Positions 15,861-64,000 of a stretch of 64,000 nt of DNA are shown piece by piece. A program made the translations under genes and the position numbers. How positions within the stretch are numbered: the stretch's first letter is position 1; the number at the start of each line of letters is the position of its first letter. The notes below the pieces were generated by a model. The model was not told the DNA's origin. It searched no databases and was given only the letters and a program-made list of their open reading frames with translations. Origin of the DNA: Pontederia crassipes (taxonomy: Eukaryota; Streptophyta; Magnoliopsida; Commelinales; Pontederiaceae); assembly GCA_030549335.1 (NCBI GenBank), contig CM060195.1:44646991-44710990 (forward strand), written 5' to 3'.

Positions 15861-16836
15861 GGGTAAAATGTATGTGCCGACCACTTATTTTCGACATAGA
15901 TGCGGAGCAAATTTGGAGCGTCCAAACATGAATTCACAGACATAAATTTAAGTGAGGGAGATGTGAGATGATCCCAGGCATCCATTTCATTTCAACAAAC
16001 CAGATCTAAAGCCGTGATTCTCTAGGAATTTGCTGCTAAATCGCCATCATCGCTCGCCTCTTTGAAAAATTGTTGTTGAATCGTCATCATCGTTCTCCAA
16101 GTGCTCGTCTCACTGCCACTCACCACAACTATCAGCCAATCTGAATCGTGAGGTTTGCCTATACACACTGCACATAGCCATCGGTGTTCATTGTTCTTCG
16201 CTAGGTGTGCATCTTCTCAAAATTGCTGCTAAATCTCCATCATTGTTCTTCTTTTGCCAGGTGTGTGCCTCTGCAAAATTGCTGCCGAATCTCATAGACG
16301 TTCTTCATTCTTTACCATGTTTGTGCGTCTAATGTGAAATCGCTGCTGAATCCCAATAGACGTTCGTCGCCAGGTGCGTGCCTCTGCGAGATCCTTGTTG
16401 AATCGCCATGGGCATTCGTCGTCCTTCGTCAAGTGCATGCCTCTCTGTGAAATTGCTGTTGAATTGCCTCTATACACAATTTTCACGAGGTTCACTGCTC
16501 GTGTTATCCTTCTTCATTCTTCGCAAGGTGTTGCTGACCATCACAGCTCATCTTCGTTCTTCGAGATTTGAATCTAAGGATGCATCACAACCATGAGCAG
16601 TGCTGGAGTTGCTTGAGATTCATTGGACCATCGAAACTAGTGCTGCAATGCTTGATCAACTATGATATTCATTCACGAATGATAATGGCGGCAGTTGCTG
16701 GAGTTGAGAGAAAGAGAATGAAAACTGTTAGCTATCTCACATCTCCTTCACTTAAATCTATGTTCGTGGATTCATGTTTGGACGCTCCAGATTTGCTCAG
16801 CATGTATGTTAAGTGCTCAGCACCTACATTTTATCC
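15861..16836. mobile_element. Long-TIR MITE with internal tandem subrepeats
   Basis: The outer 105-110 bp on each side are inverted copies of each other, diverged by perhaps 15-20 percent. The left end starts gggtaaaatgta, and the right end reversed starts ggataaaatgta. The interior at about 16,020-16,480 is a string of diverged units of about 70 bp around 'aaattgctgctgaat' and 'ttcgccaggtgcgtgcctct'. There is no transposase. The long TIRs suggest a Mutator-like non-autonomous element, but I find no clear 9-bp target duplication. The right flank is an AT microsatellite that may have erased it. The left end is 58 bp upstream of the coiled-coil gene start, so it sits in its leader or core promoter. 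Confidence 0.7.
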
Positions 16837-17202
16837 ATATATATATATATATATATATATATATATATATCTTTTATTAATAATTTAAGAATAAAAAATA
16901 TAGTTCAAATCATTAATTATAATTATATTTTTTAAGATTTTATCTACACGATAACAAATATAATCATTTTCTATAACTTTTATAAAACCATCTTTATAAT
17001 TTTACAAATTTTTGTACATTAATATTATAAATAATAATAAATATAATAATTTTCTATAACTTCTTATGCTACAAAATTACTTTTTCCTCCAAACTATTAC
17101 TAAAGACACACTCATTTTTAAAGGGTAGCACCATCATAATCATCATTCGTTTCATGATGAATAGTGGACATTGACGGATATGGGTGCCAATGGGTGCACG
17201 CG
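16837..17202. other. AT-rich spacer with (AT)n
   Basis: An (AT)n run at 16,837-16,870 followed by AT-rich sequence without coding potential, up to the LTR element. The same spacer follows the duplication edge at 56,577. Confidence 0.6.
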
Positions 17203-17873
17203 TGTCATGGGGCGTTTCCCGTGACATGAAGTGTGAAGTCTCGCGGCACTAGTGCCGCTCAACTTATAGCCCTCGACCGCTTAGCGCCGAAAACATGGAA
17301 TACATGCAGCCGCCCCGCACTGCGTAATATTGCGGAGTACCAAGTTATCCGCCCTTATGGCATTTATTTTGTAAGGCCGTCCTTATGAATGGCCAAGTAG
17401 GTGACGTTCCCGTAGGGTACGTCTTTTGCATCTTCAATATGTAACAAGACTCCTATACCTACGGTACACTGGGAGGAGTTCACTAGTGCCTTCCGAGGTC
17501 CAATTGTATGTTATGTTTTATCATATTTAATACAAGTAAGCTTTCTTTTAATTCTAGTGTCATGGCCTTGAGCGTGGGGTGGCAACCCACATCGGTGTCC
17601 CTTCGTGACGTCACGTGATCCCTTCGTCGCCCCTTCGGACTTTAAGCGCCCAAGCGCCTACATTAGTGCCGCAACGCGCTAATGCCACAGTCTCATGACG
17701 AGTAGTCCAATACTCTAGTCATGTCCGTGATTGAATGCCTATATGAACGACTCTCGGCATAGTCGTCTCGACCATAAAACTTCCGCTGCAAACTCAAAAC
17801 AGGCTTGGCTAGGTGCCTATCCGCCTAGTCGCCGCACGTGATCTAGTATCCGAGAATGACCCACCCCGTGACA
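17203..17873 (+). repeat. 5' LTR of the gypsy-type element (copy 1)
   Basis: 671 bp, TGTCA...TGACA, immediately followed by the primer site. Its partner is at 21,228-21,894. Confidence 0.9.
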
Positions 17874-60773: not shown

Positions 60774-61923
60774 CGCGCACCCACTTGAGTACCAACGTAG
60801 CAGAAATTACCAATTTCTCCATGGTTTGACACATTATGCCACCCTCGAGAGTTTCACAGATCGAGCCCGTGATTGTTGGCCTTTTTTTATTGCATTTTAG
60901 CTTCCTAAGCTCATTTATTATTTTATTTAATGTTTATATTACTTCTTTAAAATTTTATTTTCCCAATCTAATGTTAATTGGACTTGAGATCAAAATTATC
61001 AAAGGTTATTTGAATATATAATGCTTTGATTTATCTTTACAAAAATATTCAATTTTATATCATAATAATTAAATAATTTATAAGTTATATATATACATTT
61101 AATAATTATTTTATTTCATTTCCATAAATATTTTTACATAAATAAAAAATTTAATTTAATAAACAATAATGTGAAATAATATCTTGAAAAGTGATTTTCA
61201 TTAGGAAAATATACTTATAATTATTTTTTATTTTAATTATCTCATTGTATAATTTTACATTAAAATTACTATTTAATCCTATTTTCTTTATCATGGGGAG
61301 AATACATTTCCCCACTCGAGTATATACTTTTTAATATCAATTCATATTTAAAATGTTTTGAATATGTCTAATTATATATGTGTATATATAGAATTAAAAT
61401 TAAAAAAATTCTTGTTTATTTTAAAAAATCATTGTTTAAAAATATTTTTTTGTGTGACAAATGTTAAAACTGAAAAAATAAATGTACAAAATTTCATATT
61501 TCATATTGATAAACATTTTTTTAAAATCTTATTATATGTGAACCCTAAAAGAGGTAGTACAAACATTAAACCATATATATATATATATATATATATATAA
61601 CAAAAATAATCATAATAGTTATATATATATCATATTAAATTGACCGTCATGGAGAAAAAATAAATAGAAGTAAAGACAAAGTAAAATGTACAAAAATTGT
61701 ACATATATTTATACATGAAATCGGATAATACAATTCACATATAACTTTACAACTCGCCGGAATTTAACTGAAAAGACAATGACATTTGGTGATAAGCAAA
61801 AATATATACAATTGAGTACAAATCGATCAGAATAATAAACAATTGAAAGAATAAAACAATGGTATTTTTTGTGTGAAAGACGTCTGCGTTGGTAATTTGC
61901 AGTTCTGATTCAGGACGTCCTTC
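60774..61923. other. AT-rich 3' flank of LAC-B
   Basis: Copy of 21,895-23,044 with small homopolymer and (AT)n length differences. No gene. Confidence 0.6.
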
Positions 61924-63999
61924 CTAGCATTTTGGGTAATTGCGTGGCGGTGGAGGGAGGGTGGAGTCTGGCGTTCCCCCGTCTTCCACCTCAAAGGCCA
62001 TGGCCATCCCTTTCGGCAAATGCGCATCGAGATGACAGTGCATGAACCAGACACCTGGGTTGTTGGCCACAAACCTGATTGCCGCCCATCCGCCCCGCGG
62101 CACGGCGATGGTGCTCCGAACTTGTGGGTTCACCAAATTGTAGCTCTTCACCGCCGTGGCCGCGTCGTAGTTGCCGAATCCCTGCGCCAGCACATAAAAG
62201 TTGAAGCCGTGTAGATGGATGGGATGCCCCTCGAGCCCGTTCAACGCCGTATCCTGCAGCACCATCTCTACTGTCGCATTGTACTTGAGCTTCTTCAACC
62301 TCGTCGCCTTCTCCGTAGGGAACAGCGCGAAGTTCTGAAGGTTGTCTAGGCTCGTGTAGTCGAACTCCAAGGGAGGACGGTCGGGGAAGTCGGTGGTGTA
62401 CACGCCCTCGACGCCGTAGTGGTAGGCCTCGAGGAGTGACATCTTCGTGGGGTACACGAATGAAACGTTGTTCAAGCTCGCGGCGATCGCTTGGATGGGC
62501 GACGTCCGGTTGCACTGCGGCTGGTCCGGCGCGCATGGGTAGCTGCCCATTCCTACTGTGATGAACATGCGTTCGTCGACATGCTGGGGGACAGTCGGAG
62601 ATCCTGTCCGGAGGAGGCCGGTGATGTTGCTGTAGAACTGGTGAGCCACCGGGGTGTCAAAATATGATGGCAGCAATGGCATGACAGGAGGCACCGACTT
62701 CGGCACTCGGCTGGTCTTGTACACAACGATGCCGGTAGTGGTGGTCTGGTCGAGAATGGACAACGAAGGGGGCAAAGGATAGTTGCTGATGTAGACGTAG
62801 GCGGCCATGTAATAGCGAGCGGGAGGCGCATTGGCCACCATGAGCGCGTCGAGGCTCTGGCCGGGGGCGAGAACCAGTATGTCACTATGGTAAGGCGTGG
62901 TGTACTCTGCGTCGACGGCTACGACGGTGAAGGTGTGGCCGGCGATTCTGAAGAACATATGACTATTCACTGCGGCATTCACCATTCGAAGCATGTACGT
63001 CTTGCCCTGCTTGACTCGCATCTTGAAGGTGTCTGCACACAATATGGTTACGGATGTATTAGAGCTTCTGTTTAATTTGTTTGTGATGCATATATGTTTA
63101 TATAAAACAAAGATTAACATCTCTATACGACATATATATTGAATATATAGTTTTGGTTGAATATATAGTTTAAAAAATTGATGATACACTTACTATCTTT
63201 AGAACAAGGGACAAGGTCTCCGGGCCTCCCGTTGATGGTGTACGAGTTAGACTGACCATACAAATCTCCTTCCAAGTATGCCTTCTTCTCAAGGTCCACC
63301 ACGTTGTCGTTGTACCACTCACCTGAAGGGCATTAATATGCATATATGAGTGCACTCGCAAAAAAATAAACGATAAATATCTATTTTACCTTTGTTCATA
63401 AATGCAATATTGCAAATATTTGATCAAGTAATTAAGAATATATATGTGTACTATAATACCTAACAGTATTGGGATCTCCTTGTGGGGCTTGGGAAACGGA
63501 TAACCTTTGGACCCCTGCCGTGGGCGAATAACAAGAGCCCCATAGATCGTCGCACGAAGGGCCGAGGCATGGGAATGCCACCACAACGTGCCCTCTTGCC
63601 CCGTGACGTTAAACTTGTACGTGTAACTATTTCCAGGCCGTATGGGGCATTGGGTTATCAACTTATCATGTCCACGCCGTCTTGCCAATTGGTCAACCGT
63701 TGTTGCACGCCGTGCCTTCATGATGCATAAACAAGTTCAGTTTTCAGAGTGCATGTATATTTTCTTCATAATTACTAATACTATATATATAAACAGAGAA
63801 AAGATTTATTAATTAATCTTGCTCGATATATGTATATGCATGCATACCAGTGGATGGTTATGTTATAGGGCGATTGGTTGATAACATCAACGATCAAGGT
63901 ATCCCCTTCGTTAACGTATATCGTCGGCCCCTGCAGTTGACCGTTGACTCCGGTGATCGTGGTGCTGTTTCACAGACGTTCCACTTGAAAGTTTCCATC
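61924..63999 (-). pseudogene. Laccase LAC-B (copy of LAC-A), incomplete at the window edge
   Basis: Exons on the minus strand: 63999-63848 (exon 2), 63715-63460 (exon 3), 63322-63194 (exon 4), 63032-61924 (exon 5). Exon 1 lies beyond the window. It carries the same TGA in exon 2 as LAC-A (63,072-63,070 is not the site; the stop is at 63,972-63,970). Exon 3 is 256 nt instead of 248. An 8-bp repeat-like insertion (ttatca repeated, near 63,658-63,670) shifts the frame before ITQCPIRPG. Exon 5 keeps all copper motifs and retains P in EYTTPYHSD where LAC-A has R. So the copy has one old and one new lesion and is a pseudogene. Confidence 0.92.
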
Positions 64000-64000
64000 C

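Follow-up and report, generated by a model that had tools for sequence, protein, structure and literature searches.

Head-to-tail array of laccase blocks

A direct repeat in a 64,000-bp stretch of Pontederia crassipes DNA (contig CM060195.1, here C13, positions 44646991-44710990 of the 1.13-Gb assembly GCA_030549335.1; hereafter, the window) was found to be the left end of a longer array and to comprise its first two units. As assembled, the array has five units, laccase-gene blocks of about 39 kb set head to tail. Each unit is a three-gene block holding LAC-1, LAC-2 and LAC-3, and the net effect, as assembled, would be five copies of an intact LAC-2 carried along with two broken laccases. We consider it likely that the first joint of this array was illegitimate, that unequal crossing-over followed, and that a further run of units beyond an assembly gap is another allele. 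The 200 kb to the right of the window were read as well, 264 kb in all with the window, and extended coordinates continue the window numbering rightward. The parts of the window on which the array was recognized are as follows.

16,801-56,542: first tandem unit, U1, 39,742 bp, recurring gap-free to the right as U2-U5
56,543-64,000: start of the second unit, U2, cut by the window end, 98.3-99.4% identical to 16,801-25,113; U2 totals 38,832 bp
56,515-56,542: 28-bp unit end left of the joint, identical to 33,202-33,229 at 27 of 28 bases
33,202-33,229: LAC-2 3′ flank, paralogous to the unit end and matching it

In a BLAST self-comparison of the window, 16,801-20,929 recurred in direct orientation as 56,543-60,656 at 98.33% identity (4,129 columns, 54 mismatches), and 21,768-25,113 as 60,647-64,000 at 99.40% (3,356 columns, 8 mismatches, 4 gap openings). 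Chance is not an issue; base by base, the pair differs by one 848-bp loss in the second copy and a few small indels. This bore out the first-pass annotation, in which the sequence from 16,801 was said to reappear directly from 56,543 to the window end with the same laccase stop in both copies, a TGA in LAC-1 exon 2 where LAC-2 and LAC-3 both have TGC. Its claim that order and inserts are the same also stood in that both copies have a long terminal repeat (LTR) element between the same flanks, but the second copy lacks the 848 bp, which belong to that element. The tandem unit that it had proposed, 16,801-56,542, does recur as U2 (56,543-95,374), which continues beyond the window through the predicted second LAC-2 and LAC-3 and the CACTA stretches to 95,374, with three more units after it. 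A head-to-tail unit was thus rightly called, while a single tandem duplication understated five gap-free units.

In extended coordinates the units span 16,801-56,542 (U1), 56,543-95,374 (U2), 95,375-135,349 (U3), 135,350-174,134 (U4) and 174,135-215,808 (U5), with starts on C13 at 44663791, 44703533, 44742365, 44782340 and 44821125. All five have the same orientation and abut without gaps at the four joints from U1/U2 to U4/U5. A genome search with the window sequence gave seven starts of the unit on C13 among the matches listed. Within the unit, the LAC-1 to LAC-2 and LAC-2 to LAC-3 intervals are diverged copies of one another, arranged largely alike, and this ladder of diverged intervals is carried on by pieces of the sequence after LAC-3.

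The joint at 56,542/56,543 is exact except for a 1-bp ambiguity. The 28 bp to its left match a site ending at 33,229, about 440 bp past the 3′ end of LAC-2, and the match stops exactly at the joint. Forty bases to the left and 30 bases to the right of the joint were identical at all six unit starts read (U2-U7), before and after the gap alike, which makes a chimeric read less likely. Comparison of the sequence left of the two starts, 16,801 and 56,543, found no extended homology, and since no homology to the laccase ladder was detected left of 16,801 in the window comparison, the joint puts the left edge of the array into the array interior. The right flank after U5 and the unit start have just the first base, C, in common, which argues that the first joint was made without extended homology; recombination between long repeats (non-allelic homologous recombination) was accordingly rejected as its source.

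Because the 28 bp at the joint match the LAC-2 flank, the unit was predicted to have been cut just before a further laccase that should lie right of the last unit. U5 is indeed followed by laccase flank and not by a unit start: the same 28 bp at its end run on into sequence 80% like 33,231-33,380 of the window, the LAC-2 3′ flank, and a laccase-like gene stands about 0.9 kb past the U5 end, as expected from tandem duplication. The array thus has outer flanks unlike its internal joint. A second laccase to the right of the array, at about 226-232 kb extended, is clearly incomplete. Homology between the LAC-1 and LAC-2 flanks fades left of about 22,710, which had prompted the idea that the joint is ancestral and that the first copy is derived, its segment being an insertion in the flank of LAC-1 itself; this was rejected on the continuation of U5 from the same 28 bp into a LAC-2-like flank.

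Further laccase-type blocks were seen at C14:9361544-9406533 (minus strand) and C13:44993918-45004529. Each has one place that resembles the right flank of the array at 94%; the other places listed are less alike, and the C14 block may be a homoeologous or older duplicated cluster.

Unit comparison and growth of the array

Compared pairwise, U2 and U4 differed at 9 of 38,778 positions (0.023%, with 5 indel events besides), U1 and U3 at 105 of 39,702, U3 and U5 at 203 of 39,880, and U1 and U5 at 284 of 39,636. When the units were scanned in 2-kb windows, the left of U3 resembled U5 and its right resembled U1. The two-state sites common to U3 and U5 alone (21) all lie at or below 30,297, and those placing U1 and U3 against the other three units (25) all lie at or above 37,992; where U1 and U5 differ and U3 matches either, U3 was U5-like at 92 of 95 sites up to 33,630 and U1-like at 188 of 189 from 34,986. 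Since U5-private sites on the right may postdate the event, the exchange can be placed safely only within 30.3-38.0 kb, an interval with LAC-2 (33,669-35,911) inside it, and the exchange would thus appear to lie inside or beside LAC-2. The part of the unit from 30,298 to 37,991, which holds LAC-2, is also the least diverged among U1-U5, with 16 two-state sites in about 7.7 kb; homogenization or constraint may account for this.

Homologous unequal crossover should leave a hybrid whose left comes from a later unit and whose right comes from an earlier one, together with a duplicated neighbor; both were found, in U3 and in the U2-U4 pair. One crossover between U5 and U1 in a three-unit array, U1-U2-U5, would produce exactly U1, U2, a U5/U1 hybrid, a copy of U2, and U5. 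The single DNA-level event to which the repeat pair had first been ascribed fits only the original joint; five units need later exchange between units too, and U2 is not necessarily U1 simply copied.

Run of units beyond the gap

The only run of Ns in the 264 kb, 500 in length, lies at extended 238,485-238,984 (C13:44885475-44885974). After it the sequence opens with 2,062 bp identical to the right end of U1, from which the U3 end differs by 2, and then enters two more units, U6 and U7.

C13:44888037-44926878: U6, the middle unit after the gap, a mosaic passing from U2-type to a U1-type end

The first 23 kb of U6 are U2-type; with the start of the run included, there was 1 mismatch and one 10-bp gap in 25,016. 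For the 14 kb that follow, the matches listed score U2-like up to about 31 kb into the unit, and in a gapped comparison the last 1,500 bp showed 0 differences to the U1 end, 2 to U3, and 5 mismatches and 12 gap columns to U2. These 1,500 bp also equal the start of the run after the gap, so that the run need not begin with U1 itself. U7 is U5-type: its first 4.7 kb show 1 difference to U5 and 4 to U3, 5.3 kb farther on are non-discriminating (1 mismatch each to U5 and U3, plus a 6-bp gap to U5), 3,001 bp of a U5-type right part match at about 100%, compared with 98% for the other units, and its last 1,500 bp show 1 difference to U5 and 14-17 to the other units. It is 41,664 bp long, compared with 41,674 bp for U5, and the right flank after it is the same as that after U5 (100% over 3,192 bp). 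The 3,400 bp of right flank ending about 85 bp before the gap likewise recur after it at about 100%.

In four sampled comparisons with U1, U2, U5 and the flank, outside which the U6 end falls, the two sides of the gap differed by 5 mismatches in about 41.2 kb. The order of unit types in the sampled parts is that of the inferred three-unit parent, but the middle unit ends like U1, and an exact copy of that parent was rejected on this U1-like end. In the part of PMC9516828 drawn on here, near-identical copies with a gap between them count as a sign of false duplication, and two marks of a false heterotype duplication, a gap between the copies and near-identity, were present in the stretches compared, except where the U6 end was set against U2. 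The haplotype or assembly artifact raised in the first-pass annotation was a well-placed worry that bears mostly on this run, which, judged by its sequence, is probably another allele set in series, a near but not untouched copy of the parent.

Laccase genes of the unit

The laccase genes in the window are all on the minus strand.

23,045-25,301, minus strand: LAC-1, five exons, broken by a TGA at codon 42
61,924-64,000, minus strand: LAC-1 of U2 (exons 2-5 inside the window), with the same TGA and an 8-bp frameshift in exon 3
33,669-35,911, minus strand: LAC-2, an intact five-exon laccase of 577 aa
41,641-46,801, minus strand: LAC-3, broken, the part for LAC-2 residues 352-577 missing beyond 41,641; an LTR element splits an intron

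Across U1-U5, LAC-1 has the TGA at codon 42 in all five units and the frameshift in four of the five, and the insert in the LAC-3 intron is present in all five. LAC-2 is open over 577 aa with GT/AG splice sites in every one of them. Its last exon carries Cu-oxidase and Cu-oxidase_2 domains and has the laccase 6klg as best solved relative (E 1.3e-97); the LAC-2 protein varies among the units at three positions (T112A, F187Y and L457F). If the gene model is right, one gene, LAC-2, would have been multiplied in working form; a gain in laccase dosage is a guess from this. ARAGORN and Rfam searches found nothing in the window.

Transposable elements of the unit

The unit carries several transposable elements.

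17,203-21,894: LTR element with TG..CA ends, a primer-binding-like site TGGTATCAGAGC at 17,876, and CGCG on both sides
56,939-60,773: the same LTR element in U2, without 848 bp that include most of the 3′ LTR
19,746-20,054, minus strand: insert in the LTR element with a SNF2-helicase-like fragment (open reading frame 19,651-20,013; PDB match, E 5e-21)
42,094-45,653: LTR element in the LAC-3 intron, with a 5-bp GTTAC target duplication and a CACTA-type end at 44,340-44,347
48,997-53,106: CACTA-type element with a Transpos_assoc domain at 50,974-51,405
53,382-56,514: another CACTA-type element, degraded, its end 28 bp left of the joint

The element at 17,203-21,894 stands between identical flanks in both window copies. 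Its two LTRs are 95.0% alike (33 of 660 positions differ), and its 5′ LTR copies in U1 and U2 differ at 6 of 668, which makes the element older than the duplication. The 848-bp deletion in U2 corresponds to about 20,926-21,773 and has a 4-bp GACT microhomology at its ends. As a candidate non-autonomous LTR retrotransposon, the element has the LTR pair and the primer-binding-like site, with end repeats of only 4 bp (CGCG); the eight searched of its ten open reading frames of at least 100 aa gave no gag/pol Pfam match, two of these eight showing sub-threshold, chance-level matches. The 309-bp SNF2 insert is also in U2 and is missing from another copy of the family (L008). All 33 long matches listed outside the array, with 40 of 4,242 candidates scored, stop where the insert begins, and it looks like a gene-fragment capture private to this element.

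The LTR element in the LAC-3 intron lies about 25 bases from the last LAC-3 exon, and its U5 copy holds a further 1,739 bp. The assignment of 48,997-53,106 used what we take to be the CACTA terminal motif. At the ends of the element at 53,382-56,514 a matching 3-bp target duplication was not found, so one end may have been rearranged before the duplication.

Proposed history of the array and alternatives

The sequence of events, crossing-over as the mechanism of growth and the status of the run beyond the gap as an allele are what we infer from these comparisons. First would have come an older ladder in which laccase genes stood about 10-11 kb apart, LAC-1, LAC-2, LAC-3 and then LAC-4 rightward. 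A block from the left edge of this ladder, at 16,801, to just before LAC-4, at 56,542, would then have been self-joined head to tail, and, as the microhomology at this first joint is at most 1 bp, illegitimate end joining or a replication error would be its source rather than long-repeat recombination. With more than one unit present, homologous unequal crossing-over would have taken over, and in U1-U2-U5 the pairing of U5 of one chromatid with U1 of the other, misaligned by two units, would have given U1-U2-U3-U4-U5, in which U4 is the copy of U2 and U3 the hybrid with a U5 left and a U1 right. The U1-type end, U2-type unit, U5-type unit and same right flank beyond the gap would probably be another allele placed in series. 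An earlier step from two to three units is suggested by the sequence of U2, and an 8-bp insertion in LAC-1 exon 3, present in U2-U5 and in neither U1, LAC-2 nor LAC-3, agrees with it.

Several observations weigh against this history. Two sites beside the exchange, 38,605 and 38,640, run the opposite way, and gene conversion could mimic parts of the U3 mosaic. The two-to-three step, in which the left of U2 would be U5-like and its right U1-like, has p = 6e-18 over all sites and p = 0.21 outside transposons. The run beyond the gap departs from the inferred parent, U6 being U2-type for 23 kb yet ending like U1, so that a further exchange, conversion or misassembly is needed there, and the unit number per chromosome would be only as good as the assembly from which it is read. 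In the window pair, finally, the LTR element differs at 52 of 3,723 positions and the laccase side at 6 of 3,340, a contrast that exceeds a rate ratio borrowed from wheat (p = 0.012) and makes gene conversion on the laccase side possible.

The excess in the LTR part is one of transitions (p = 5e-10); for transversions it is not clear (p = 0.19). The contrast persists without CG and CHG sites (p = 0.0007). C-to-T type transitions make up 42 of the 52 differences in the LTR element and 2 of the 6 in the flank, a pattern like methylation-driven decay; an excess of transitions in transposons is reported for wheat in the portion of PMC2996936 used here. Different ages for the LTR and laccase parts were thus rejected, since one age with faster decay may suffice, though the ratio is somewhat large. 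By the wheat rates given in that portion of PMC2996936, which serve only to rank events, the window pair would be about 0.16 million years old from its laccase side and 0.42 million years from its LTR element, and the LTR insertion about 1.5 million years, and the 0.023% between U2 and U4 would correspond to about 20,000 years at the slower rate.

Given two versions of the array in one assembly, the plant may be heterozygous, with a five-unit allele and a shorter, probably three-unit allele, the crossover product and its near-parent both kept and LAC-2 dosage segregating; we put this forward tentatively, at somewhat less than even chances. The five-unit stretch could instead have arisen in assembly, from two alleles with fewer units set end to end or from a graph loop walked twice, with a switch from U5 to U1 at the place where the two are most alike, leaving about three units per chromosome. 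U3 and U4 are what such a switch would give, a shorter version is present after the 500-N gap, the 0.023% between U2 and U4 is of the same order as the divergence across the gap, and the change of U6 from U2-type to U1-type means that unit identity can switch within a unit after the gap too. However, the longest exact stretch common to U1 and U5 is 1,729 bp, a short overlap on which to misjoin long reads, U3 and U4 each have private two-state sites (10 and 7), and between the left half of U3 and the run beyond the gap there are 5 differences in about 10 kb, where one allele should be identical. We regard this explanation as rather unlikely.

That the sequence beyond the gap is real and separate, a second array run with a second right flank on the same chromosome, is improbable. 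It is part of the same chromosome-scale sequence in the same direction, and its middle unit is a mosaic absent before the gap and so no plain repeat of the same contig; on the other hand, the right flank recurs in the stretches sampled, the nearest of them ending about 85 bp short of the gap (3,400 bp at about 100% and 3,192 bp at 100%), and a gap between near-identical copies points, in the text of PMC9516828 relied on above, to false duplication. A shorter block around LAC-1, copied or dispersed into 56,543 without the 39.7-kb unit, would fit the window by itself, where just 7.46 kb of the second copy are seen, but was rejected with hardly any doubt because an entire second unit was read to 95,374 with three more after it, which refutes it as far as the assembly is right.

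Comparison with known systems and significance

Plant laccase clusters mostly consist of diverged single genes arranged in ladders, as in the older ladder here, and tandem duplication is mentioned in many papers on the laccase family; the present array differs in being a repeat of second order, in which a block of three genes recurs and an exchange can be read. The cucumber Femaleness (F) locus is reportedly a copy-number-dependent locus at which unequal crossover has occurred, and it involves other genes. Soybean Rhg1, in the part of PMC12073271 considered here, is a 31-kb multi-gene repeat, head to tail, whose copy number differs between haplotypes. Both arrays have units of tens of kilobases with several genes each in head-to-tail order, the difference in unit number between alleles being inferred in P. 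crassipes, while here the genes are laccases, one intact per unit, and no trait is known for the laccase array. The false duplications in the part of PMC9516828 cited above, near-identical copies parted by a gap with alleles in series, fit the run beyond the gap, but there is no gap from U1 to U5 and U6 is no plain copy. The event is therefore of a known kind, multi-gene units of tens of kilobases having been known already, and is unusually legible.

What appeared to be a pair is thus an array whose growth can be traced from an illegitimate first joint to exchange between units. With broken genes in each unit and a run beyond the gap that is probably no separate locus, a laccase gene count taken from the assembly would be overstated. 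The array offers a concrete copy-number test for an intact laccase and, if the plant does carry a five-unit and a shorter allele, a crossover event would be readable in one individual, with LAC-2 dosage segregating.

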